This document shows, piece by piece, positions 7,450-23,650 of a stretch of 64,000 bases of DNA. Each line of letters opens with the position of its first letter. Position 1 is the stretch's first letter. The notes beneath the pieces are model-generated. The model saw only the letters and a program-made list of their open reading frames with translations. It was not told where the DNA came from and made no database searches. Source of the stretch: Ignavibacteriota bacterium (GTDB taxonomy: Bacteria > Bacteroidota > Ignavibacteria > Tepidaquicellales > Tepidaquicellaceae); assembly GCA_026390735.1 (NCBI GenBank), contig JAPLFJ010000012.1:124001-188000 (forward strand). Reading direction: 5' to 3'. Both the position numbers and the translations under genes were made by a program.

Positions 7450-8868
7450 TTAGTATGGATTCAATTTAGTCTTTTCAGTAAATATGATTAATCTTTTTGA
7501 TGCTCTTGTCAATGCCACATAAAGATGTTTTGGAGAATCAAATTTATGAGCATTGATTATTAACACAGTGTCAAACTCTAATCCTTTGGTTAATAGAGTT
7601 GTCCCTACAGATTTGCCAAATAATTTTCTGCCCATTCTACTAATTAAATTTCTAATATTTGTCATAGCAATAAAAACTGTAATATTGCCATATTCAGCTT
7701 GTTCCAATGCTTTGCAAAATGTATAAAACAACTCTTTCCTATAACATTTGATGTTTGGTAATTTATATACTTCTTTTAATGCAATCGAAAAAAGTGCCGA
7801 TGAATATTTGTCCTGTAATATATTGAGTATATTTTCTAATGGTTTCAGAATAGTTTTATCATTGTCATTTTTCTTTTTAACTAACCCAGCTCTTTTTAGC
7901 CATTTATTGACCTCTGTTTTATTAAAAAGAAAATCGCATAATAATGATAACATGGGAATTACATTGTCCTCTGTGATTTTATCTGCGATACTTGATGTTT
8001 TATAAAAGTCCTTGTCATAAATGGATTCAACAAGGCTTGGTATATTATTAAATCTTTGTATAAACTTTATTCTTGAATGAATATTTGTAGTGATTGGGTC
8101 AATTATTAATAAGTTATTCTCGTTTTTAATAATATCCAAAATGACATTATATTTCTCTTCATATATATCGCTACATTTGTGAAGTTCAATGGAAGAATAT
8201 TTTTCCAAATCAATTTCCATTTTTTTAAGTAGACTATTCCTTATCAAATATAAATCACTCCCTAAATTAGTATTATTACCACGTAACCATCTTTGTGGTT
8301 CATCCAGTTCGTATTTAGTTTCTGCAAACTCACCCATAATTACAGTATCCTCTAAATCAACAAGATTCTCACTATTAAACCCATAGATACCTTGTAAATA
8401 ATCTCCCAGAATACGTGTCTTCAGTGATTCAGAAAGTGCCAAAATTAATTTGTGCTGACTTAAAGTACAATCCTGATATTCGTCAACAAAAAGACCTTTG
8501 TATGAATTAACAATAATTTGTTTAATGGGATTAAGTTTAAAAAGTTCAGTTGCTTTTTCAATAAGAAATGGATAGTATTTTTCACTGTTATCTTGTTTAG
8601 GAATATCACTACCATTATAAAACGATAAAGTGTACTTTTGAGCAAAACTCATTATTGTTTCAACCGAGTAACTTGAATTAGATATACCTTGTTTTTTTAT
8701 TTTCTCTTTAATTGAGGCTACTCCAGCATGGGTATGTGTTAATATTAATTGTTTACCTTTGTCTTTCGAGTGATTAAGACATTCCGCTATTGCGTGAGTC
8801 TTCCCAAACCCTGCTGGGGCAATAAGCATGCTTTTATCTTTAGAAATGAATTCTAAATAATTAAGCAT
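7450..8868 (-). CDS. UvrD/Rep-like superfamily 1 helicase, GajB-like
   Basis: With ATG at 8868 the protein has 472 residues. Motifs in order: Walker A APAGFGKT (17-24), Walker B/motif II FVDEYQD (127-133), motif III ILGDYLQGIYGF (153-164), motif V TKGLEFDTV (about 427) and motif VI YVALTRASKRL (about 450). The length is near that of GajB (roughly 500) and far shorter than UvrD. The start overlaps the end of the OLD-family gene by 8 bp, indicating translational coupling. Class 2 OLD nucleases are known to pair with UvrD-like helicases, as in Gabija defence. A TTG 6 bp upstream is an alternative start. Confidence 0.87.
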   Translation of the reverse strand: MLNYLEFISKDKSMLIAPAGFGKTHAIAECLNHSKDKGKQLILTHTHAGVASIKEKIKKQGISNSSYSVETIMSFAQKYTLSFYNGSDIPKQDNSEKYYPFLIEKATELFKLNPIKQIIVNSYKGLFVDEYQDCTLSQHKLILALSESLKTRILGDYLQGIYGFNSENLVDLEDTVIMGEFAETKYELDEPQRWLRGNNTNLGSDLYLIRNSLLKKMEIDLEKYSSIELHKCSDIYEEKYNVILDIIKNENNLLIIDPITTNIHSRIKFIQRFNNIPSLVESIYDKDFYKTSSIADKITEDNVIPMLSLLCDFLFNKTEVNKWLKRAGLVKKKNDNDKTILKPLENILNILQDKYSSALFSIALKEVYKLPNIKCYRKELFYTFCKALEQAEYGNITVFIAMTNIRNLISRMGRKLFGKSVGTTLLTKGLEFDTVLIINAHKFDSPKHLYVALTRASKRLIIFTEKTKLNPY

Positions 8869-10537
8869 TATCAATCCAATCAGAAAGTTCCTGAAATTGG
8901 GTTTCTAATCGAGTGCCTTTAATATCAGCAAGATATTTGCAACAAACTTCACCAAGAAATTCTCCGTGGTCTATATTCTTTAACCACTGCCTTTTTTTGG
9001 CAACAATACCCAATGTTTTCCTTAATTCTAAAGAATCTACTTCAATCCAGTTCTGTGGCAATTCCCCATATGTTTTGTAATAATGTCTTAAGCTGTCTTC
9101 TACAGAATCATGTCTTGTTGATAATACATAATGAATTAATTCTTTTATTGCATTCCATGGTAAATCTAGAAAAATCTGATTTTCAATCGCGTTGTTATTA
9201 TCGCAGTCAATTATATTTATACCTTTTTCCTTTAGAGTTGCTTTCTGTTCATTAAATTCTTTAACCTCTGAATCACAGAACATACATACTTTATATCCAG
9301 CTTCTAGAAAACCTTTAGCATAAGCAACTTGATTTGAACCAACCCCATTGGCAAAGCCCACACCTAAATACGAAACGTTGTCTTGTTCAGATTGAATTCT
9401 ATAATTATTTAAACCTCTGCATATTCCAATTTCTGTGGGACCTTCGCAAACTAATATACGATTAGAGAAAAAAGCTTCTGGATTAGTTCTTATACAACCC
9501 TGTAAAGTTGTATCAAACAATAATAAACATTCTCCATTTTTTTCAATTTTATAAATATCTGTTGCTTTAAGTTCTACCAAAATATCTCGTGAGTGAGTAG
9601 TAATAAAAACTTGTCCTATATTTGGTTTTTTAAGAGTTCTAACTAAATGTTGAGCTCTATCTGGTTCAAGTCCAAGTTCAATTTCATCGATTAATAATAT
9701 ACCCCCAGATTTGGCAAGTTCAGTTTGTATAGCCACAGATATTAATCTTTTTGTTCCTTTTCCTTTTAATCGAAATGGTACATTATCTTCATGAAGACAA
9801 ATTCTACCATCCTTTATTGCTATATCTTTAAAATCAATTGAAGTTGAAGTATTTTCAATATCAACTCCAAGATTAGAAGCACTTTTCTTTATATTTTTAA
9901 CTACATTATTTAAATATTTAAATGCGTCTGGGTCAATGTTTTGCTTTGCATCTCTAAATGCATCAACTATTATGCTCGTTTTTTCTTCGTTAGAACCATC
10001 TTGCTTTAATAGTGAATATAAAGGAGTTCCTTTATTCCATGTAAAATGTCTGTCTATATAATCTGAAACCATAAATACATTTAATTTTGCTCTATCAGTT
10101 GCATGTATTTCAATTGGTTCTTGACCGTTCCTATCGTTGGTGACAAACCATTTTGGCTCTAAATCTTTTTTAACTATTAATTTTATTGTTAATACAGGTT
10201 CATGTTCGTCTTTTATCTCGTCATGGATAATACCAGTTGCTTTATCTAACCCTCGTATATAAAGCCCAAATTTATTTTCGTGAATTAAAGCATTTGGGAG
10301 CTCATATAGAGAAACTTCAATTTCGATTGGATTTGTAATTTCTACTTTGTAGAAATCTGTATCATAAAAGGATAAATTCCAAATGGGGGATAGCACTGAA
10401 GAAATTGCCTCAAGAATAGTTGTCTTACCTGAATCTCCACGGCCAATTAAACAAATAAAGTCTGTCATTCCAAAAACTTGCTCAAACTTTTTAAAACCTC
10501 TATAATTAGCAATTTTAAGTGTATGAATTTTTGCCAT
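8861..10537 (-). CDS. OLD-family ATPase/TOPRIM nuclease, GajA-like
   Basis: The 558-residue protein has an SMC/ABC-type ATPase half: Walker A GRGDSGKTT (32-40), a signature-like region near 256-266, Walker B LLIDEIE (281-287) and the histidine-containing switch ITTHSRD (312-318). A TOPRIM half follows, with the conserved acid in ILVCEGPTE (E365) and the metal site FCDSE (D422/E424). This is the class 2 OLD architecture of GajA, a sequence-specific DNA nickase controlled by nucleotides. The next gene is an overlapping UvrD-like helicase, so the pair is Gabija-like. All key motifs are present, so activity is plausible. Confidence 0.9.
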   Translation of the reverse strand: MAKIHTLKIANYRGFKKFEQVFGMTDFICLIGRGDSGKTTILEAISSVLSPIWNLSFYDTDFYKVEITNPIEIEVSLYELPNALIHENKFGLYIRGLDKATGIIHDEIKDEHEPVLTIKLIVKKDLEPKWFVTNDRNGQEPIEIHATDRAKLNVFMVSDYIDRHFTWNKGTPLYSLLKQDGSNEEKTSIIVDAFRDAKQNIDPDAFKYLNNVVKNIKKSASNLGVDIENTSTSIDFKDIAIKDGRICLHEDNVPFRLKGKGTKRLISVAIQTELAKSGGILLIDEIELGLEPDRAQHLVRTLKKPNIGQVFITTHSRDILVELKATDIYKIEKNGECLLLFDTTLQGCIRTNPEAFFSNRILVCEGPTEIGICRGLNNYRIQSEQDNVSYLGVGFANGVGSNQVAYAKGFLEAGYKVCMFCDSEVKEFNEQKATLKEKGINIIDCDNNNAIENQIFLDLPWNAIKELIHYVLSTRHDSVEDSLRHYYKTYGELPQNWIEVDSLELRKTLGIVAKKRQWLKNIDHGEFLGEVCCKYLADIKGTRLETQFQELSDWIDNA

Positions 10538-11395: not shown

Positions 11396-13366
11396 ATGAA
11401 TCAAGAACAAATCAAAAAATTAGAAAAGGAGTTATGGGATTCTGCCGACCAACTTCGTGCTAACAGTAAATTAACTGCTGCAGAGTATAAAGACCCAGTT
11501 CTTGGTCTTGTATTACTTCGTTTTGCACAAAATCGTTATGAAGAAGTAAAAGCAATTCTTGAATCCAGAGTATCAGACGGACCAAGACCAAATCGTAATA
11601 TTGCAAAAGATAAATATTTGGCTGAAGGTGCAATAATGTTGCCTGAAGAAGCAAAATATGATTATTTGGCAAACCTTCCAGAAAGTAATGATATTGCAGA
11701 AGCAATTAATAACGCTATGAAGTTGATTGAAAAAGAATATCCTGATTTGTCTGGTATTCTTCCAAAAAGTTATCAGGAATTTGAAAGTCAATTACTTCGT
11801 GATTTAATTCGTGTTTTCAATAAGGATGCAGTTAAGAAAGCCACTGGTGATGTATTCGGAAGAATATATGAATATTTCTTAATGAAGTTTTCTATGCAAG
11901 GTGCTGGTGCACAGGAGGGTGGAGAATTCTTTACACCTCCAAGTCTTGTTCAATTGATTGTTCATTTTATTGAACCAGACCACGGAATAATACACGACCC
12001 TGCTTGTGGAAGTGCTGGAATGTTTGTTCAAACTGGATATTTTGTACGTAATCACACAAATAAAATTGTAAACGAAGCAATTAAATGTTATGGTACAGAA
12101 CTTAAAACAAATAACTATAAGTTAGCAAAAATAAATCTTGCTATACACGGTATTGAAGGTAATATTATTGAAAGAAATAGTTTTTATAGTGACCCTCACA
12201 ATCTAATTGGTAAATGTGATTTTGTAATGACTAATCCTCCATTCAATGTAAATAAAATTGATAAAAATAAGGACTATGTAAAAAATGACCCCCGTTTACC
12301 ATTTGGTTTACCCAAAGCCGATAATGGTAACTATATGTGGATTCAGTATTTTTACAGTTATTTAAATGATAAAGGTAGAGCGGGTTTTGTTATGGCAAGT
12401 TCTGCTACAGATGCAGGACATAGTGAAAGAGCAATACGAAAAGAATTGATTGAAACAAAACACGTTGATTGTGTCGTTTCCATTGGAAATAATTTTTTCT
12501 ATACTCGTTCATTACCTTGCCATCTTTGGTTTTTTGATAAAGGTAAAAGAAAGGAAAATGATGATAAAATTCTAATGATTGACGCCAGAAACATTTATAG
12601 AAAAGTTACAACAACAATAAATGATTTTTCACCTGGTCAATTGTTAAATCTCACCACTATTATGAAAATGTATCGAGGGGAGAAAGATGTTTATACAAAT
12701 ACAATAAAGGAGCACGAGCAAATATTATACGATTATTTGGATAAGATGAACGAAGATTATAAAGTAATGTTTAAAGATTTGATTAAAATCGGAGAAGAGT
12801 GTAAGGTTTCTTTAAAAATTAATGAAATAGTTAAAATTAATAAACCAAGTAATTATACAGAGGCTCAAATTATTTTTAACCATTATTATTCACAAATCGA
12901 ATCAGTATCAGTTATTATTAGCCAATGGCAAGAAGAAATATCCAAAGTTGAAAAGAATATTGCAGAAAAACAAACTGATGAAAAAGATGGGAAGAAACAA
13001 ATTGCATTATTACGTAGCAATATTAATAAACTTAATAAACCTATTGTAGCATTTTATGATGCTACAAAAGAAAGTGCTGAACAGATAAAACAAGGGATTA
13101 AGGATTGGCACGATTTTGTTGTTTGGTTTCCAGATAAAATATATAGGGATATTGAAGGGCTTTGTAAAATTATTACTATCGAAGAAACAAAAGATAACGA
13201 ATATTCTTTGACCCCAGGAAGGTATGTTGGAATTAAGATACAAATCGAAGAAGATTTTGATTATACAAAAAGAGTTAAAGAAATATCACAATTGTTATCT
13301 GATTTGAATGACAAATCAAATTTATTGTTAGAAGCAATAAAAATAAACGAAAAACAATTCTTATGA
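11396..13366 (+). CDS. hsdM: type I restriction-modification methyltransferase subunit
   Basis: The 656-residue HsdM has an N-terminal helical domain (1-150) and an N6-adenine methyltransferase core with motif I DPACGSAGMF (201-210) and the catalytic motif IV NPPF (280-283). The long C-terminus (about 430-650) is helical with coiled-coil character and makes it larger than the usual 500-residue HsdM. It methylates the target adenine with HsdS. Its stop overlaps the start of hsdS (ATGA, 4 bp). It is divergent from the minus-strand defence block. Confidence 0.96.
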   Translation: MNQEQIKKLEKELWDSADQLRANSKLTAAEYKDPVLGLVLLRFAQNRYEEVKAILESRVSDGPRPNRNIAKDKYLAEGAIMLPEEAKYDYLANLPESNDIAEAINNAMKLIEKEYPDLSGILPKSYQEFESQLLRDLIRVFNKDAVKKATGDVFGRIYEYFLMKFSMQGAGAQEGGEFFTPPSLVQLIVHFIEPDHGIIHDPACGSAGMFVQTGYFVRNHTNKIVNEAIKCYGTELKTNNYKLAKINLAIHGIEGNIIERNSFYSDPHNLIGKCDFVMTNPPFNVNKIDKNKDYVKNDPRLPFGLPKADNGNYMWIQYFYSYLNDKGRAGFVMASSATDAGHSERAIRKELIETKHVDCVVSIGNNFFYTRSLPCHLWFFDKGKRKENDDKILMIDARNIYRKVTTTINDFSPGQLLNLTTIMKMYRGEKDVYTNTIKEHEQILYDYLDKMNEDYKVMFKDLIKIGEECKVSLKINEIVKINKPSNYTEAQIIFNHYYSQIESVSVIISQWQEEISKVEKNIAEKQTDEKDGKKQIALLRSNINKLNKPIVAFYDATKESAEQIKQGIKDWHDFVVWFPDKIYRDIEGLCKIITIEETKDNEYSLTPGRYVGIKIQIEEDFDYTKRVKEISQLLSDLNDKSNLLLEAIKINEKQFL

Positions 13367-14514
13367 ATTGGAGCCATAAAAATTTAGACGAACTTGTTAA
13401 ATTCCAAAGAGGTTTTGATTTACCTCGTGATAATTTTGTAGATGGTAATGTACCTGTTTATGGTTCAACTTCTATTTTAGGATATCATAATAGAGCAAAA
13501 ATAAAAGCACCTGGAGTAATCACAGGTCGCTCTGGAACTTTAGGTGTATTCCAATATGCGACAAAAGATTATTGGCCTCATAATACTTCTCTTTGGGTTA
13601 AGGATTTTAAAGGTAATTCACCGAAATTTGTGTATTATTTATTGCAATGTTTAGATTTTAAATTATTCAATAGTGGCGGTGCTGTACCAACATTAAACAG
13701 AAACGTTTTAAAAGGTTTTATGGTTGATATCCCACCAATATCTGTCCAAAACAAAATAGAAAGTATACTTACATCTTACGATGATTTAATTGAAAATAAT
13801 TCTAAACGTATTGAACTATTAGAGGAAAAAGCAAAAATAACATTTAAGGAATGGTTTATTTGTCATAGAATAAATCAGAGAAAGATGAAATTGGATAAGA
13901 ATTCAGGTTTACCAGATGGTTGGGCGAAAATTCAAATAGGAGAATTCATAAAATTTCAAAAAGGAAAGAAAGCAAGTGATATTGTTGAAAATTACAAGCA
14001 AGGATATATTAAGTTATTACTACTTGATGGAATTGAAGGTGGTACTTATTTATACACAAATCCTCATAAGCAAGTATTGGCAAAACGAGGAGATTTGATT
14101 ATGCTAATGGACGGTGCAAGGAGTTCAAAAGTGTTTTTTGCAAATGAAGGTGCTGTGGGTTCTACAATGGCGAAAATTATTATTATTAACAAAGAGGTAT
14201 CACCTACTTTACTAAAACAATTTTTCGAAATTAATTTTATATGGATGCAAACTAATAATACAGGTGCTGCTATTCCACACGCTAATAAATCATTTATCAA
14301 TAGAATGCCTTTTCAATTACCACCAATTGAAATATTAAAAAAATGGAAGGATTTAATAGAACCGATTTATTTGCAGATTGAAATCCTTATTGAGCAAAAC
14401 CAATTATTAAATGAAGCAAAAAATATTCTCCTACCAAGACTAATGACGGGAATAATTAAATTGGAAAACACAAACCACGACTATTTGAAAAAAGTAAAAC
14501 AACGTTTAAAATGA
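13363..14514 (+). CDS. hsdS: type I restriction specificity subunit
   Basis: The 383-residue protein has two target-recognition domains (about 1-130 and 185-330), each followed by a helical conserved spacer (IPPISVQNKIESILTSYDDL; LPPIEILKKW and onward to LLPRLMTGII). Each domain reads one half of a split DNA target. The first shows the usual GVITGRSGTLG and HNTSLWV motifs. The protein overlaps hsdM and hsdR by 4 bp each (ATGA), as expected for a coupled operon. It appears intact; the target sequence cannot be read from the protein. Confidence 0.95.
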   Translation: MNWSHKNLDELVKFQRGFDLPRDNFVDGNVPVYGSTSILGYHNRAKIKAPGVITGRSGTLGVFQYATKDYWPHNTSLWVKDFKGNSPKFVYYLLQCLDFKLFNSGGAVPTLNRNVLKGFMVDIPPISVQNKIESILTSYDDLIENNSKRIELLEEKAKITFKEWFICHRINQRKMKLDKNSGLPDGWAKIQIGEFIKFQKGKKASDIVENYKQGYIKLLLLDGIEGGTYLYTNPHKQVLAKRGDLIMLMDGARSSKVFFANEGAVGSTMAKIIIINKEVSPTLLKQFFEINFIWMQTNNTGAAIPHANKSFINRMPFQLPPIEILKKWKDLIEPIYLQIEILIEQNQLLNEAKNILLPRLMTGIIKLENTNHDYLKKVKQRLK

Positions 14515-17500
14515 GTTACGAATATTCTGAAGATGCCTTGGTTGAAACTGCAACTCAACAAGTTTTAGAAGAACTCGGATGGGAAGTAGTATATGCTTGG
14601 AAGAATGAAAGTTTCGGAAATGATGGTTTGCTTGGTAGAGAAAACAAATCCGAAGTAATACTGAAAAGATACTTATTACAATCTTTAAAGAAATATAATC
14701 CAGACTTACCGAATTTAGCATATCAAAATGCTATTGAACAAATTGAACAAAAAGTTGCTGGACATTCAATTGGAAGAACAAACAAGGATAAATATTCAAT
14801 GCTTACAGACGGAGTTCTCGTAAGTTACACAAATGAAAAAGGTGTTTTGGAGAAAAAGAAACTTCGTATTTATGATTTTGATGATTACCAGAACAATCAT
14901 TTTCTTGCTGTTAGACAATTTGAAATTGTAGGAGAATTATATAATCGTAGACCTGATGTAATAGGTTTTGTTAATGGTATTCCATTAGTATTCTTTGAAT
15001 TAAAAGCGCATTATATAGATTTACAGAGTGCTTACAACGATAACTTGTCAGACTATAAAGATACAATCCCTAATATTTTCTATTGTAATGCTTTTATAAT
15101 ATTGAGTAATGGAACTGATGCTAAAGTTGGAACGATTACAAGTCCATATAATTTCTTTTTGGAATGGAAAAGAATTACTGAAGAGGAAAATGGTGTTGTA
15201 AATCTGGATACAATACTTCGAGGAACTTGTTCGAAAGAGAATTTGATGGATATCTTTGAAAACTTTTTGTTGTTTGATGATAGCGGTGGAGATATAGTGA
15301 AAATTATGGCAAAGAATCATCAATATATCGGAGTGAATAAAGTTCTTGAGAATGTTAAAGATATAAATGATTTAAAAGGGAAACTCGGAGTATTCTGGCA
15401 TACACAGGGGAGTGGTAAGTCATACAGTATGGTTTTTATCTGTCAGAAAATACATCGTAAATTAGGTGGCTCTTATACATTCCTTTTAGTTACCGATAGA
15501 ACTGAACTTGAAAGACAACTTTATGATACTTTCACAAGTGTTGGAGCAGTATCCGAAAAGAATGTTGTAGCAAAAAGCAGAGACAAACTTCGTTCACTGT
15601 TGAAAGCAAATCATAAATACATCTTTACTCTAATACATAAATTTTCTATTAATCCCAAAAAGGAAACAGAATATCCATTAATTACCGATAGGAAAAACTT
15701 AATTGTTATATCTGATGAGGCTCATCGTACTCAAGCTGGTACGCTCGCTCGCAATATGCGTTTCAATGGAATCCCAAATGCTTCTTATCTTGGTTTTACA
15801 GGAACACCAATTTTCAAAGATGAAGAGCAGATTACGAAAAATATATTCGGTGAATATGTGTCAATTTATGATTTTAATACATCAATAGCGGATAAGGCAA
15901 CATTACCATTAAAGTATTTAAACAGAGGTGATAAACTTGATATTATAAACCCTGAATTAGATGAACAAATGGCTGACTTAATACAGAACGAGGATTTAGA
16001 TGAAAACCAACGCAGAAAACTTGTGGATTTATTTCAAACTAATTACGTGCTCTTAACTTCCGAACCGAGATTGGATGCAATAGCAAAGGATTTAGTTTGG
16101 CATTTTAATGAACGGGGTTATCAGGGGAAAGCAATGTATGTTACCATCGATAAGCCAACTGCCGTAAGAATGTATGATTTGATAATGAAGTACATTCCAG
16201 AATATGTAAAGGAATTGAAGTTGAGAATTAAGAATGCAGAAGATGAACAGGAATCTCAATCATTAATTCGTAAATTAAGAAAGGTTGAGGAAACCGAGAT
16301 TTGTGTTGTTGTTAGTCAAGAACAAAATGAGATAAAGAAATTTAGTAAGATGAAATTGGACATTGAGTATCATAGAAAGAAAATTGTTCAAAGAGATTTA
16401 GAAAAAGAGTTTAAAGATGAGGATAATCCATTCCGATTAGTTATTGTCTGCGCTATGTGGATTACTGGTTTTGATGTCCCTTGTGTTTCTACGATATATC
16501 TTGATAAACCTATCAAAGGGCACACTTTAATGCAGACTATTGCGAGGGCTAACAGAGTTTATGATGATGAAAAGGAAAATGGATTAATCGTTGATTACGG
16601 AAATGTTTATAAGCAATTAGAAAAAGCATATTCAGTTTATGGAGAAGGTGGAAATAAGACTGGGGGATTAGGTGGTGATGGTGATGAAAAGAATAAAAGA
16701 CCACTTGAATTACTGATAGAGATGGCTAAAGAACTTGAAGTGGCTATTGTTAATGTTGAAAAAGAATTAACCGATAGAGGATTTGATTTGTCGGTTCTAA
16801 TCAACTCTAAACCAATAGATAAATTGGCAAACATTAGAAAAGCAATTGATTGTATCTGTTTAAATGAAACTACAAGAACAACATTCGAATTGTTGACAAG
16901 GGAAGTATTCAAGAAATACAAAGCACTTTATCCTGAAGAGCAAGCAAAACCATATACCAGAAGATTTAATGCAATCGAAGCTATTTATGGTCAACTAAAC
17001 CAACAGGTAAAATCTGCTGATATAATAGAAGTGATGCTCAAATTACAGAGTTTAGTAAACGAAAGTGTGTTTATTAAACCATCAAAAGAAACCGATTCTG
17101 AAGTAAGCATTGATTTATCCAGTCTTGATATAGATAAACTTCGTGCTGTCTTCGCAAAAGTAAAAGAAAAGAATACAGTATTATTCGATTTACAGAATGC
17201 ACTTGAGAAAAAGTTATCTCAAATGCTTAAAGATAATCCATTGCGAATTGAATTTTATGAACGATATAAGAAAATCATTGATGAATACAATCGAGGAAAA
17301 ACTTTAGAAGATACTATGAAAGCATTCGAAGGGTTAAGTGAATTTATGAAAGATTTATCCGTTGAAGATTCCAGAGCGTTAAGAGAAAACTTGGATGAAG
17401 AAACATTGGCAATCTTTGATTTACTGAAAGAAGGAAAAACATTAGATACTGATGAAATCAAAGAAGTTAAAAAAGTTGCAGTTGAAACACTTCATAAACT

Positions 17501-17693
17501 CAAAGAAGAGAAGTTAAGAATTGAAAGATGGCGTGAGAGTACACAAATTACAGCACAGGTAAGAAGTATGATATATGATTATTTGTTATATCTACCACAA
17601 AATACTTATTCAGATACAGACGTTACCGAAAAAACCAAAATTGTCTATCAACATATATATAGCAACTATCCTGGTGGGAGTAATGTTGCTTAA
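14511..17693 (+). CDS. hsdR: type I restriction endonuclease subunit R
   Basis: The 1060-residue motor and nuclease subunit has a PD-(D/E)XK nuclease domain near the N-terminus (D149, then E163-L-K165 in FFELKA). A superfamily 2 translocase follows, with Walker A QGSGKS (299-304), DEAH box (402-405) and GFTGTPIF; TGFDVP and IARANRVY lie in the second RecA domain. The C-terminal 300 residues are helical and bind the methylase core. Length and motifs are typical, with no frameshift. It is the last gene of hsdMSR. Confidence 0.96.
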   Translation: MSYEYSEDALVETATQQVLEELGWEVVYAWKNESFGNDGLLGRENKSEVILKRYLLQSLKKYNPDLPNLAYQNAIEQIEQKVAGHSIGRTNKDKYSMLTDGVLVSYTNEKGVLEKKKLRIYDFDDYQNNHFLAVRQFEIVGELYNRRPDVIGFVNGIPLVFFELKAHYIDLQSAYNDNLSDYKDTIPNIFYCNAFIILSNGTDAKVGTITSPYNFFLEWKRITEEENGVVNLDTILRGTCSKENLMDIFENFLLFDDSGGDIVKIMAKNHQYIGVNKVLENVKDINDLKGKLGVFWHTQGSGKSYSMVFICQKIHRKLGGSYTFLLVTDRTELERQLYDTFTSVGAVSEKNVVAKSRDKLRSLLKANHKYIFTLIHKFSINPKKETEYPLITDRKNLIVISDEAHRTQAGTLARNMRFNGIPNASYLGFTGTPIFKDEEQITKNIFGEYVSIYDFNTSIADKATLPLKYLNRGDKLDIINPELDEQMADLIQNEDLDENQRRKLVDLFQTNYVLLTSEPRLDAIAKDLVWHFNERGYQGKAMYVTIDKPTAVRMYDLIMKYIPEYVKELKLRIKNAEDEQESQSLIRKLRKVEETEICVVVSQEQNEIKKFSKMKLDIEYHRKKIVQRDLEKEFKDEDNPFRLVIVCAMWITGFDVPCVSTIYLDKPIKGHTLMQTIARANRVYDDEKENGLIVDYGNVYKQLEKAYSVYGEGGNKTGGLGGDGDEKNKRPLELLIEMAKELEVAIVNVEKELTDRGFDLSVLINSKPIDKLANIRKAIDCICLNETTRTTFELLTREVFKKYKALYPEEQAKPYTRRFNAIEAIYGQLNQQVKSADIIEVMLKLQSLVNESVFIKPSKETDSEVSIDLSSLDIDKLRAVFAKVKEKNTVLFDLQNALEKKLSQMLKDNPLRIEFYERYKKIIDEYNRGKTLEDTMKAFEGLSEFMKDLSVEDSRALRENLDEETLAIFDLLKEGKTLDTDEIKEVKKVAVETLHKLKEEKLRIERWRESTQITAQVRSMIYDYLLYLPQNTYSDTDVTEKTKIVYQHIYSNYPGGSNVA

Positions 17694-18134
17694 CAAAACA
17701 AATAGGTTAATACAATAAATTATTCCTATCAATCGGCTGAAAAAGCCCGTAATTGCTGGAATTGCACCACGTTGCCCAGGTTGAACGAGCCCAATAAGAG
17801 GCGAAATAACATATGTTTTTAGAATTATCTTCTGTCCTGGTGCGTTTAATTGCGCCATGGTGCATTTGGACTGAATATTAATGAACTCATTTTCTGTATT
17901 ACAAATAAATCTAATCTAATTGTTACATTCCGAATAATAAATAATCACAAATTCCTTCCTCTTTAAGGATGCCAAGAAAGACTATTAAACATAATCGACT
18001 ATCGGTGTTTATCAATTCTTGCTTTTCGCTCTTGCTATTTATTCCGACCCTTTAGTTAGTTGATTCATTCATATTTTCTTTTGCATTGAGTAATTTAGTA
18101 ATAATTTCTATATTCTTAAATAACCCAAATTAAT
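17694..18134. other. intergenic space before the HEPN/SecB-like operon
   Basis: The 441 bp hold no convincing gene; short frames on either strand lack a recognisable product. It contains the left copy of the cassette-flanking repeat (17826-17872), and GGCTGAAAAAGCC near 17733 could form a small hairpin. The promoter of the following operon should lie in the last 100 bp, which include TTTGC near 18080 and AT-rich sequence, but no exact consensus. Confidence 0.5.
17826..17872 (+). repeat. cassette-flanking repeat, left copy
   Basis: About 47 bp beginning TATCTTCTGTCCTGGTGC match 19735-19783 in the same orientation with a few changes and one-base gaps. Both copies contain TGGTGC, then TTTAAT, then GCGCCA, a possible hairpin with a 6-bp stem. 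The two copies flank the HEPN-like/SecB-like operon. Confidence 0.75.
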
Positions 18135-18548
18135 TTGTCGGACATTTTACTAAATAAATCAAAAGAGAATTTAGATTTAGCGTCTTCGCTTTTTAAAAGT
18201 AAAAAGTATATTAATTCTATCGTTCATTGTTCATACTATTCTTCCTTGCAACTTATTAAATATGTTATAATATTTGAGTTACATAGAGAAGAAAGTTCGC
18301 TAAATGCCGAGGCTAAAATTGCAAAGACAGGAACTAATAGTTTGATTATCTCGTTGATATTTAAAGAAATGAAAGAAAGAGACAAATCGGATGCGGTTGA
18401 ATTACATACCGCTATTAATGAACTTAAACAATTAAGAGTTGATACAGATTATGGTATAGATTTTTACCCTGATTATAGTCAATTAGTTAAGGCAAAATTA
18501 AAAGCTGATATAGTAAACTCAATAATTAAAAAATATTTTAAAATATGA
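18135..18548 (+). CDS. HEPN-like protein of a SecB-associated operon
   Basis: The 137-residue all-helical protein has a HEPN-type pattern: ENLDLASSLFKSKKYINSIVHCSYYSSLQLIKYVI for helices 1-2 and LKQLRVDTDYGIDF near 95-108, equivalent to the LR..ADY segment of many HEPN proteins. The RNase motif Rx4-6H of catalytic HEPN toxins is not evident, so toxicity cannot be assumed. The start is TTG at 18135, after an in-frame stop; no ATG fits. It overlaps the next gene by 4 bp (ATGA). It could be the toxin or a non-catalytic partner in a toxin-antitoxin-chaperone-like module. Confidence 0.7.
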   Translation: MSDILLNKSKENLDLASSLFKSKKYINSIVHCSYYSSLQLIKYVIIFELHREESSLNAEAKIAKTGTNSLIISLIFKEMKERDKSDAVELHTAINELKQLRVDTDYGIDFYPDYSQLVKAKLKADIVNSIIKKYFKI

Positions 18549-18931
18549 CGGTTAAAGAATTTATCAATAGAATTGTTAAAGAATTATTTGAGAAATATCA
18601 AGAAAGTGCTATTCTTTATGAATATAAAGATAATTCTCAAACACACTTCTTAAAAATATTACCAAAGTCAATTTATGACTCTGTTGAGTTTAAAGAACTT
18701 TATGCTGACTTTATAAGTGAATTTATTGATAATGATTTTGAAGGTTCTTTATGTATAATAGCTGATGATAGTGCCGTTACATTAATTAATCCTGATTTGT
18801 ATATTAATTCTACAAGTGACTCTTTAAAAACTGTTAGTATGAATAATCTTTTACAAAAGAATAATTTCAATTCAATCTTTTTAAATAAGAGCTTAAAAGA
18901 AAGTGCAATTAATTATTGTTTAGCAGCATAA
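18545..18931 (+). CDS. unknown protein of the HEPN/SecB-like operon
   Basis: The 128-residue protein has no family assignment. It reads as a small alpha/beta protein: an N-terminal helix (VKEFINRIVKELFEKYQE), strands (HFLKILPKS; GSLCIIADD; VTLINPDLYI) and a hydrophilic C-terminus. No signal peptide or membrane segment is visible. Its start overlaps the HEPN-like gene by 4 bp, and its stop is 1 bp from the SecB-like start. This tight order suggests a complex of all three. By position it could be antitoxin or toxin. Confidence 0.7.
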   Translation: MTVKEFINRIVKELFEKYQESAILYEYKDNSQTHFLKILPKSIYDSVEFKELYADFISEFIDNDFEGSLCIIADDSAVTLINPDLYINSTSDSLKTVSMNNLLQKNNFNSIFLNKSLKESAINYCLAA

Positions 18932-18932
18932 A

Positions 18933-19370
18933 ATGGAAAATAATCAAGATTCAAAAATAGTTGTTAAAGATATTAGTTTAATAGAATCCTACTTCAAAAA
19001 AGAAGCAATCGTATTAACTAAAGAAATGCTTAACAACGATATAAAATTAAGCTTAAATGTTCTGCAAGGGGAACCTATTTTTAGTGTTACTTTAAATTTA
19101 GATTTTAATAGTAAACAAGCAGATAAAGATGTATCGAACGCAAAAATTTCTATTATGGGTATTTTCGAAATCGAGGGTAGTAAACCGAGTTATTATGACA
19201 ATTTTTGTTATGTAAATGCTCCTGCTATTATTTACCCCTATATACGTGAACATTTGGCAACATTATCTCTTAAAGCAGGTGTCCCACCTGTTAATTTACC
19301 ACCATTTAATTTTGTTGCTTTTGGACAAGGTTATCTTGATTTACTTAAAGCTTCTATAGAAAAAGTTTGA
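18933..19370 (+). CDS. SecB-like chaperone
   Basis: The 145-residue protein has the SecB length and fold pattern. The most telling part is APAIIYPYIREHLATLSLKA followed by GVPPVNLPPFNF, equivalent to the SecB segment of a helix leading into PPVNLAPVNF. SecB binds unfolded proteins; solitary SecB-like proteins also act as the chaperone of toxin-antitoxin-chaperone systems (mycobacterial Rv1957) and of the CmdTAC phage defence system. Being the last gene of a compact operon with a HEPN-like protein in a defence-rich element favours such a role over general export. Confidence 0.82.
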   Translation: MENNQDSKIVVKDISLIESYFKKEAIVLTKEMLNNDIKLSLNVLQGEPIFSVTLNLDFNSKQADKDVSNAKISIMGIFEIEGSKPSYYDNFCYVNAPAIIYPYIREHLATLSLKAGVPPVNLPPFNFVAFGQGYLDLLKASIEKV

Positions 19371-19607: not shown

Positions 19608-19734
19608 TAAGATAAAATTACCAATAATTCCAACTTCACCAGGATAGGTCTAGGTCGTTTTTGGCCAAATATACGGGATTTCCTTATTTTTCACTTCAGT
19701 CGATATACTGCCATTCCCAAAACTCCATTAAAAA

Positions 19735-19783
19735 TATCTTCTGTCCTGGTGCATTTAATTTGCGCCACGGTTCATTCTGGTCT
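19735..19783 (+). repeat. cassette-flanking repeat, right copy
   Basis: This is the partner of 17826-17872, same orientation, starting TATCTTCTGTCCTGGTGC. Together they bracket 1.86 kb holding only the HEPN-like, unknown and SecB-like genes. Confidence 0.75.
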
Positions 19784-19882: not shown

Positions 19883-21082
19883 TTATAGACTTACTTTCTT
19901 AAAGTTTAAATTAAATCCAGTCGCTTCGTTAATAAAATATTCAATTTCTGAAACTGATGTATTAATGTCTGAAACCCATCCATCAAACATTTTTAATCTG
20001 ATGCTGTCCTTATATTTAGTGCAGATTAGATTTAAGACCTGACTCTCTAAATTCTGAAGTAAATGTGCCATAACCTTATTCCTATTAATAGATGCATTGA
20101 AACGATAGTAATATACAAGTTCTTTAATATCTGCAATTTCTTTTTTTAGATTATAGATAAAATTAAAACTCAATATATCTTCAATCTGTTTTTTACTCAT
20201 ATTAGCAAATACAGTATTGTGGTCGTTGTTTACACCAGAATTTAATAGTGCTAACATAATTTCTTTTGCTTTCCATTTAGTAATATTAAATTTAGTCGTT
20301 AATGCATCTATTACTTCATCTCTGTTGTTAACATATAAATTTAAATGAACATAGCATTTAGTATCAAATTCTTCTTTGATGAGCCATTCTCGTAGTAGGG
20401 TATAGTGTGCATTTATAATGTCATAATCATAACAACCGATTCCTGAAAATAATCTGTTTCTTAACTCGGTATAAAATTTTTGTAAGTTTGCATCCGAGTC
20501 TAAAAAAAGTCTGCCTGTGCTTCTCTCTGTATATTTATCTGTGGAAACATTTTCCAATATCATAATCAAACCATTCTTTCTTGCTTTCAACTCTGCCATC
20601 GTTATGATTTCTTTTCTGGGATTAAATATTTGATTATACTCGTCAATTCCAGCCTGTCCCTTCATTACCAATTCAATTAATAATTTAGCATCATCTATTC
20701 CTCTTTCCACATTAATTTTAATTTCATTCTTTTCATTATTCTGTCTAATATAGGATTCATTTAATTTATATGAATTGATAGTTTCTTTGAGTCGTGATGA
20801 ATAAGACCAACCACGAGCAGTCCCTTTCCAAAATTTATCGTTTACCAAAACATAGAACGGTGCAATCATAGATTTCCATTGTCTGAAATTGATTTTTTTT
20901 CTCATATAATCAGCAAAAAGAATAAATACTTCATCATAATTGCCGTATAAAGAATGTAAGTTCTTGCCTAAAAGAGAATAATTTATGATAAATATTAGAT
21001 TGTCTCTTTGTTTTCTGTCCATTTGATTAAATTCTGGGGAAAATTCTGTCTGAATAGTTTGAATTAAAGTTAGATTATTCAT
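19883..21082 (-). CDS. possible divergent polymerase/replication protein
   Basis: The 399-residue protein has no certain family. A set of segments resembles palm motifs of divergent family-A-like polymerases of mobile elements: RSTGRLF (187-193), YDYDIINAHYTLL (218-230, like motif A), KWKAKEIMLALLNSG (269-283, like motif B) and RLKMFDGWVS (362-371, like motif C), ending with a helix and TGFNLNFKK. The N-terminal 180 residues are helical and unassigned. It is not a reverse transcriptase: no YxDD is present. It may replicate the element or have a defence role. The assignment is pattern-based. Confidence 0.6.
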   Translation of the reverse strand: MNNLTLIQTIQTEFSPEFNQMDRKQRDNLIFIINYSLLGKNLHSLYGNYDEVFILFADYMRKKINFRQWKSMIAPFYVLVNDKFWKGTARGWSYSSRLKETINSYKLNESYIRQNNEKNEIKINVERGIDDAKLLIELVMKGQAGIDEYNQIFNPRKEIITMAELKARKNGLIMILENVSTDKYTERSTGRLFLDSDANLQKFYTELRNRLFSGIGCYDYDIINAHYTLLREWLIKEEFDTKCYVHLNLYVNNRDEVIDALTTKFNITKWKAKEIMLALLNSGVNNDHNTVFANMSKKQIEDILSFNFIYNLKKEIADIKELVYYYRFNASINRNKVMAHLLQNLESQVLNLICTKYKDSIRLKMFDGWVSDINTSVSEIEYFINEATGFNLNFKKVSL

Positions 21083-21891: not shown

Positions 21892-22776
21892 TCAATCTAT
21901 GTATATCCTAATTTTAATTTTGTCACTCTCATAAGCATAATATGTATTTACAACCTTGAGATTTTCTGCAATGTTATCAATTGTGATTTCTTTCAATTTC
22001 TCTTTAACTTGATTCCTGTATTCTTCAGAATTAAGTTCAGCAATTCTGATTATTTTTGCTTCTTTAAGAAATGATGAACGAACATTATCCGACACAGGAT
22101 TATCTTTCCTATATTCTTCGTAAATTTCTTTTAATATTTCAGTCTGTTTGTCTTTTTCAAATGTTGAGAATGCTATAATTTCTTGATTAGTTATTTCATC
22201 ATTGATATTTTTTATAAAAACATCACCGAATCCTTTTTCTATCTCGTTTAACCCATTTCTAATACTATCGTATCCAATTGAATAGTCGGAATAATTATAT
22301 ACTGTACGTTCCGACAAGTTATATTCTTTGGCTATTATTTGAGCAGTTTTGCTGGGTGCATCTTTTGCACCTCCACTTTCATCCAGATTTGAATATTGAT
22401 TATGACCGCCAGTTAATTTCCGTTTGTTATACAGAACACCGATTAGATATTTTCTTTGTTCAAAGTCTATATTTCTTCTACCCAATTGGTTTTCTACTAT
22501 CCACTCAATTTTTTCTTCCTCTGAATCAAAAGAGATTTCTTTTATAAGATACGGTAACTTGTTTATCCGACATATTGTGATTCTATGATGGCCATCTAAA
22601 CAATTGTATGCTTCATCAATATATATTATCTCACGGCATCCGTCTTTTAGTATTGAGTCTTCAAGTTTCAAGTATTCATCTTTTGTTAAGTATGGCATTA
22701 AAAGTTGATATTCTGGATTAAAACTAATTTTGTTGTCGTAATCCACCGAGTTATAAATTGTTTGGTTAATTTTCAT
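21892..22776 (-). CDS. ParB/Srx-like domain protein
   Basis: The 294-residue protein has a ParB/sulfiredoxin-type N-terminal domain (about 20-120). In place of the GERR of chromosomal ParB it has CLDGHHRITICRIN, the DGHHR variant seen in mobile-element proteins, and QLGRRNIDFEQRKYLIG follows. Residues about 140-175 (TAQIIAKEYNLSERTVYNYSDY) form a helix-turn-helix. DGHHR-type proteins may be CTP- or ATP-using DNA-binding proteins or nucleases; the activity here is unknown. It lies in a minus-strand group with DUF5131 and zinc-ribbon genes, without a ParA. Confidence 0.82.
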   Translation of the reverse strand: MKINQTIYNSVDYDNKISFNPEYQLLMPYLTKDEYLKLEDSILKDGCREIIYIDEAYNCLDGHHRITICRINKLPYLIKEISFDSEEEKIEWIVENQLGRRNIDFEQRKYLIGVLYNKRKLTGGHNQYSNLDESGGAKDAPSKTAQIIAKEYNLSERTVYNYSDYSIGYDSIRNGLNEIEKGFGDVFIKNINDEITNQEIIAFSTFEKDKQTEILKEIYEEYRKDNPVSDNVRSSFLKEAKIIRIAELNSEEYRNQVKEKLKEITIDNIAENLKVVNTYYAYESDKIKIRIYID

Positions 22777-22945: not shown

Positions 22946-23650
22946 CTAATTATTTGTTAGTAGTGGATATTCATTATATATTCTCCCGTATAATAAATTA
23001 TTTCTGTCTGCTTTTTTGTATCCCGCATCTTGTTTATAAAAGAAAGGGATATTATATTTTCTACATTGCTGAAGTATATCTATTGCCCATTCTTTTCTCA
23101 TTGGTCTATAATTTACAGCACTTTCTCCACCGACAATTACCCAGGATATTCCTTGGAGATTCAAATTCGGTATATTACCTAATAATGGTTCTAAAGAAAG
23201 AAACTTTACATTTGCCCCAGTATTCCGTAAATGATTGATTCTAAATGTATACCTACTTTCTTCCACCGACACTCCCAGCCAAATATTTTGTGTCCAGTTC
23301 ATTTCAGGTGATAGTTCTTCCAACCTTTCTACTCTTTTAGTTAGCACTTGGAAAGTATGCTGTTGGCATTGATTCATTACATTAAATACTTTCTTAATGT
23401 AATCCGTAGGAACATCCTTATGAAATAAATCACCCATACTGACTACAAATATTAATTGAGGCTTCTTCCATTTTAACGGCTCATTTAAGCGTTCTCTTTT
23501 TAATGTTACTTTGCTGAATTCACCGAATGTATCTGGATATCTTTTTGCTATCTTCTCCGCATAACAGTTCTTGCATCCAGCAGAGATTTTAGTGCAATTA
23601 ATTACAGGATTCCAGGATTTCTCTGTCCAACTGATTTTTGTGCTGTTCAT
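22946..23650 (-). CDS. DUF5131 (phage Gp37/Gp68) family protein
   Basis: The 234-residue protein matches DUF5131 closely: TKISWTEKSWNPVINCTKIS, then GCKNCYAEKIA, VSMGDLFHKDVP, the segment WLGVSVEE, and WVIVGGESAVNYRPM. Cysteines in INC..GCKNCY recall the metal-cluster-binding radical-SAM-like part of the family, whose reaction is unknown. Members occur in phages and mobile elements, often with ParB-like or TcmP proteins. The ATG overlaps the stop of the zinc-ribbon gene by 1 bp, so the two are translationally coupled. Confidence 0.87.
   Translation of the reverse strand: MNSTKISWTEKSWNPVINCTKISAGCKNCYAEKIAKRYPDTFGEFSKVTLKRERLNEPLKWKKPQLIFVVSMGDLFHKDVPTDYIKKVFNVMNQCQQHTFQVLTKRVERLEELSPEMNWTQNIWLGVSVEESRYTFRINHLRNTGANVKFLSLEPLLGNIPNLNLQGISWVIVGGESAVNYRPMRKEWAIDILQQCRKYNIPFFYKQDAGYKKADRNNLLYGRIYNEYPLLTNN

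Follow-up and report, generated by a model that had tools for sequence, protein, structure and literature searches.

The window, the whole 64,000-nucleotide stretch of DNA analysed here, carries three open reading frames in tandem on the plus strand, at 18135-18548, 18545-18931 and 18933-19370. The first two overlap by 4 bp and the last two are separated by 1 bp, the tight packing that the preliminary description of this DNA had claimed. The first frame (18135-18548) encodes a HEPN protein of 137 amino acids and putative toxin, and its TTG start aligns with the ATG starts of its relatives (MSDILLNKS compared with MSELQNKS). A protein of 128 amino acids, read below as an antitoxin, is encoded by the second (18545-18931), and a SecB-like chaperone of 145 amino acids by the third (18933-19370). 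The operon is flanked by a 33-nt direct repeat, with the left copy at 17819-17851 and the right copy at 19728-19760; the two are 91% identical, lie 1909 bp apart from start to start and are the only copies in the window, and a 16-nt core of the repeat has a chance expectation of 0.03. These repeats are possibly the boundaries of a cassette or insertion that carries the operon. Promoter-like and terminator-like sites around the operon do not rise clearly above the shuffled expectation.

The surroundings bear out the defence-rich island that had been proposed. A Gabija system occupies 7450-10537 on the minus strand, with GajB at 7450-8874 and GajA at 8861-10537 (PADLOC E-values of 1.5e-126 and 1.3e-174), a complete type I restriction-modification system (HsdM, HsdS and HsdR) lies immediately upstream of the three genes at 11396-17693, and a DUF5131 protein, the PADLOC candidate PDC-M41B, is encoded downstream at 22946-23650. 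Neither Pfam nor PADLOC recognises the neighbouring open reading frames near the DUF5131 gene, at 19883-21082 and 21892-22776 (minus strand).

The HEPN protein and the SecB-like chaperone

The product of the first gene, initially called HEPN-type, matches Pfam PF05168 at 25.3 bits, above the gathering score of 22, and its AlphaFold model (pLDDT 92.6) has AF0298 (2hsb) as the top structural match, with a Z score of 16.4 and an rmsd of 2.0 over 121 residues. The nearest solved chains by sequence are 9xbd (E 9e-8) and 9xbc, for which no paper was found in the literature. These two chains differ at the Tyr of an R-x3-D-Y motif, which is F in 9xbc, and this difference suggests that other workers regard the Tyr as functional.

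The preliminary description had noted the lack of an evident Rx4-6H motif, and that much stands, as the window protein reads R101-x3-D105-Y106, with D and Y at the place expected for the H. No conserved H follows R101 in the family; an H six residues further on occurs at a single locus (L018). What has to be amended is any impression that the family is left without a candidate active site, since every informative relative retains R101, D105 and Y106, and 32 of 33 family members have an alternative His68. The sole exception is the window copy, which in the family alignment has Asn68 at this position (codon AAT, 18336-18338, plus strand). In the AlphaFold model position 68 is part of an insert that separates core helices 2 and 3. 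This arrangement is that of the AF0298-like HEPN-T branch, whose members have D in place of the Rx4-6H histidine; a different conserved H, located in the insert that separates helices 2 and 3, may complete their active site (PMC3710099). The HEPN protein of the operon belongs to this branch and shares with its solved members (2hsb, 9xbc and 9xbd) the D at the motif H and, in the family, the alternative H; unlike them, it is paired with SecB, a partner absent from their descriptions in the literature covered, and the window copy does not have the alternative H. As judged from these conserved residues the family is probably catalytic, most likely an RNase that uses R101 and His68. Non-catalytic binding of RNA or the ribosome is possible, especially for the window copy, which by virtue of Asn68 may be attenuated, non-catalytic or active through binding only. 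Other HEPN proteins are toxins of toxin-antitoxin systems, and HEPN proteins lacking Rx4-6H can be toxic nonetheless, perhaps through RNA binding (PMC3710099).

The third gene matches SecB (PF02556, 61 bits, E 1.5e-16) and the PADLOC profile of the CmdC chaperone, PD-T4-9_C (E 1.3e-13), a profile that recognises the chaperone in all four of the trios tested. No other SecB was found in its genome, in keeping with the first reading of it as a solitary SecB-like chaperone. The tested host genomes have no SecB besides that of the trio, and the SecB gene is absent from four further genomes of the genus to which the window belongs. A relative of the chaperone from Desulfovibrio belongs to an MqsR-MqsA-SecB toxin-antitoxin-chaperone (TAC) system (L010, 4779-6222), the only locus in the SecB reference-genome match list where a TAC toxin and antitoxin are both recognised.

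Recurrence of the three genes

The three-gene neighbourhood, whose conservation the preliminary description had made decisive for its proposal, recurs in many genomes. A SecB gene lies directly 3′ of the middle gene in 31 loci across Bacteroidota (the window and 30 others), with a gap of -22 to +14 bp, and the HEPN gene lies upstream in all but three, in which it is broken, interrupted or beyond the contig end. Gene neighbours mostly differ from locus to locus, and a protein search of reference genomes likewise returned Bacteroidales loci with the identical three-gene order and differing neighbours. Profile searches with the middle protein found it in 3 of 395 genomes sampled across the phylum, in 10 of 101 and 6 of 197 genomes of two families, and in 17 of 393 genomes of one order, counts that take in already known genomes and some decayed copies. 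Among the 27 complete trios the protein distances correlate (Mantel r of 0.82 for HEPN and the middle protein, 0.70 for HEPN and SecB, and 0.61 for the middle protein and SecB), and for each of the three pairs none of 5000 permutations reached the observed r. The correlation indicates that the three genes travel together and, combined with recurrence in 31 loci, that the arrangement is not due to chance.

Two of the loci are associated with mobile or viral DNA: one trio (L081) lies in a Mu-like prophage beside a terminase gene and another (L017) on an IMG/VR viral contig. Plasmid searches with four family proteins (SecB and three middle proteins) and a search of phage records with one middle protein gave no match, and further scans of viral contigs returned the L017 contig only or nothing. 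Decay is also seen, as in the degenerate trio at L012 (5402-6126), where the HEPN and SecB cores are deleted and the frame of the middle gene is intact. In Seramator thermalis (L008, 6714-7521) a separate MNT gene and a helical partner lie just 3′ of the trio, and similar genes adjoin the degenerate trio of L012.

The middle protein and its C-terminal tail

The middle protein had been described as having no family, and it indeed gives no significant match in Pfam, NCBIfam, PADLOC or PHROGs; nor was a solved relative of its domain found by sequence. Its AlphaFold model, built with 18 sequences, divides into an N-terminal domain of alpha/beta fold (residues 1-91, 18545-18817, plus strand) and a C-terminal tail predicted to be disordered (residues 92-128, 18818-18928, plus strand), with a pLDDT of about 82-94 per ten-residue block over residues 1-90 and below 50 over residues 92-128. 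The domain of about 90 residues is conserved in relatives, with Y25, H34, P40 and F60 among its conserved residues, and the tail ranges in length from about 26 to 126 amino acids. A fold search with the domain returned KH domains (9lrg, Z 8.1), MNT antitoxins and ribosomal proteins at background level only, and the protein was therefore not assigned to any of these families.

The tail, a putative chaperone-addiction region, ends in NYCLAA (18911-18928, plus strand), which resembles an ssrA degron. A C-terminal -AA is present in 28 of the 31 chaperone-linked middle proteins and A[A/S] in 30 of 31, compared with -AA in 0 of 281 unrelated open reading frames of the same loci (Fisher p 7e-37, a value that overstates independence as the members share ancestry); the exceptional tails end in -KAS (L005 and L007) and -LTV (L008). 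The likeness to the host tmRNA tag, as predicted by ARAGORN, extends further upstream in several genomes. The window protein ends SAINYCLAA and the tag of its own genome is AENNYALAA; in two other genomes tail and tag are identical over nine residues, both GENNYALAA (G313) or both GNTQYAMAA (G633), and in two more they are close, with GSTQYAMAA against GNTQYAMAA (G732) and GENNYTMAA against GESNYALAA (G869). The remaining tails share only the end of the tag. In the tag-matching stretches the codons differ synonymously from those of the tmRNA gene, which places the likeness at the level of the protein and rules out tails copied from the tmRNA gene as DNA. The antitoxin of CmdTAC, CmdA, has the LAA end of other TAC antitoxins, a sequence recognised by ClpXP, and its degradation in the absence of its SecB-like chaperone CmdC depends on ClpP (PMC11618068).

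One genome offers a natural comparison. In G735 (L079, 6132-8818) there are three tandem pairs of HEPN and middle genes, one with a frameshifted HEPN, and the genome has no SecB gene. The middle proteins there are 105-106 amino acids long, terminate directly behind the conserved domain and have -DTIS or -LANL as their last residues. The chaperone-addiction model holds that classical two-component homologues lack the C-terminal extension of the antitoxin (PMC5105189), and the joint absence of chaperone and tail is as this model predicts, a fit that is suggestive and comes from one genome with three related copies. The broken copies of the family are also informative. The HEPN gene is broken beside an intact frame of the middle gene in L012 and L099 (deletions), in L084 (a nonsense mutation) and in the frameshifted pair of G735, which fits the HEPN protein being the toxin; in the decayed loci L045-L048, where the middle gene is truncated, no HEPN of the trio is left. 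Judged by the sequences, the middle protein is best read as a chaperone-addicted antitoxin with an LAA-type degron, like CmdA.

A toxin-antitoxin-chaperone model and its alternatives

We propose that the three genes form a TAC module with a HEPN-T toxin, a reading that we consider very likely, and which follows from the tail, its -AA ends and likeness to the tmRNA tag, and the tailless relatives without SecB, as these together point to a chaperone-addicted antitoxin. In this model the HEPN protein would be the toxin, and the conserved N-terminal domain of the middle protein would bind and neutralise it. The disordered tail would hold a chaperone-binding stretch and the terminal ssrA-like degron, such that free antitoxin would be degraded by ClpXP. 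Binding of the dedicated SecB-like chaperone to the tail would hide the degron, leaving the toxin silent. The trigger would be titration of the chaperone; the titrant would most plausibly be a structural protein of a phage, by analogy with CmdTAC and HigBAC, where the triggers are the T4 major capsid protein (PMC11618068) and a lambda tail protein (PMC11980606), respectively. Loss of the chaperone would then lead to degradation of the antitoxin, release of the toxin and abortion of the infection. A role in phage defence is suggested by the genomic context and by analogy with CmdTAC, MqsRAC and HigBAC.

The module shares with CmdTAC (PD-T4-9, E. coli) the order of toxin, antitoxin and SecB-like chaperone, a chaperone that matches the same PADLOC profile, an unstructured C-terminal region of the antitoxin ending in LAA, the ClpXP signal (PMC11618068), and a defence setting. 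It differs in its toxin, which is a HEPN protein rather than an mRNA ADP-ribosyltransferase, and in its antitoxin, which has a conserved alpha/beta domain, whereas CmdA is predicted to have two N-terminal helices. The toxin profile of PD-T4-9 (CmdT) matches nothing in the window or in the two relatives searched, and no PADLOC antitoxin profile matches either. With HigBA-SecB, the TAC of M. tuberculosis, and with MqsRAC and HicAB-SecB the module has in common the SecB-like chaperone and a variable C-terminal extension of the antitoxin (PMC5105189), but the HigB, MqsR and HicA toxins and the HigA, MqsA and HicB antitoxins have no Pfam or NCBIfam match in the trio, in a search that does recognise MqsR and MqsA at the Desulfovibrio locus. 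Membership in the CmdTAC, HigBA, MqsRA or HicAB TACs is thus excluded by the families of toxin and antitoxin. The sequence traits of a TAC are present, namely the operon order, the variable C-terminal extension, the LAA-type end and, in one genome, tailless homologues without a chaperone. The proposal of a toxin system that depends on a chaperone and differs from the TACs described so far is supported at the level of sequence, by the conserved trio and by the lack of any match of its first or middle gene to known families of TAC toxins or antitoxins.

That the SecB-like protein is an ordinary export chaperone and a chance neighbour of two unrelated genes is very improbable. Its SecB fold and Pfam match would suit such a role, but the trio is found in 31 loci and its proteins diverge in step, the gene is the only SecB of its genome and is missing from the four other genomes of the same genus, its distribution is patchy (3 of 395 genomes across the phylum sample, 17 of 393 in a single order), and it occurs in a prophage and in defence islands; we reject this reading on the recurrence, the sole SecB and the absence within the genus. 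Within a TAC, the HEPN protein could instead be non-catalytic and bind RNA or the ribosome, or the window copy of the toxin could have decayed and be held silent by an antitoxin and chaperone that are still intact. The missing Rx4-6H and the window's N68, where 32 of 33 members have H, would agree with this, as would the possible toxicity of motif-less HEPN proteins, perhaps via RNA binding (PMC3710099), and the HEPN decay in L012, L084 and L099. The conservation of R101, D105 and Y106, and of H68 in all copies but that of the window, suggests on the contrary a family active site, and all three window frames are open, so that we regard this alternative as possible but doubtful.

Two further alternatives concern the middle protein. 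HEPN-MNT systems (type VII toxin-antitoxin systems, HepT-MntA) likewise place a HEPN-fold toxin beside a small alpha/beta partner, and the domain of the middle protein has a weak fold similarity to MNT, at background level; they differ from the trio in that the trio has a SecB-like chaperone and a HEPN motif of R-x3-D-Y instead of Rx4HxY. The middle protein might then be a degenerate nucleotidyltransferase that once AMPylated the HEPN protein and now binds it, a derivation that would be compatible with a TAC and that we hold to be unlikely. The HEPN partner, the conserved Tyr106 of R-x3-D-Y and the fold matches over residues 1-90 (HI0073, 1no5, Z 7.5; 8xeo, 6.8; 1ylq, 6.8; 5yep, 6.4; 8xeh, 6.3) speak for it, but Z scores of this size are at background level and the KH fold of 9lrg scores as well, profile comparison with three MNT proteins (hhalign) gives 1.3% probability, and in the model a beta hairpin (strands 22-28 and 33-39) takes the place of the GSxRG turn and helix of MNT proteins. 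Having no Pfam MNT match and no similarity to MNT by sequence, the middle protein is not classed as a member of HEPN-MNT, although its domain may be remotely related to MNT in fold. The roles might also be swapped, with a harmful middle protein and the HEPN protein as RNA-binding regulator or antitoxin, an arrangement that would draw on the middle protein's lack of a known family, on the enzymatic nature of the alpha/beta partner in HEPN-MNT and on the weak fold similarity to the MNT antitoxin 1no5. Yet in characterised TACs it is the antitoxin that bears the chaperone-addicted tail and ends in LAA (PMC5105189, PMC11618068), intact middle genes coexist with broken HEPN genes, and the middle protein has no profile similarity to MNT, which makes swapped roles more improbable still.

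The TAC reading can be taken a step further, though only tentatively, if the tail is a mimic of the full host tmRNA (ssrA) tag under selection at the protein level and the antitoxin domain a new, possibly MNT-derived, inhibitor of HEPN. Were this so, the switch would plug directly into the host's recognition of the tag, that is ClpXP and any tag adaptor, and the SecB-like chaperone would be a dedicated shield of an ssrA-like tag.

No paper describing a HEPN TAC was found in the literature covered; the 2013 survey of TACs (PMC3581621) and preprints lie outside it, where a prior mention is possible. The model adds the HEPN-T toxin class and an undescribed antitoxin domain to the chaperone-guarded toxin systems, and extends these systems widely in Bacteroidota. 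It also makes the degradation step directly testable, as the tails end like the host tmRNA tag and a chaperone-free version without the tail exists in nature. If true, the model would strengthen the view of SecB-like chaperones as general sensors that have been grafted onto unrelated toxins.
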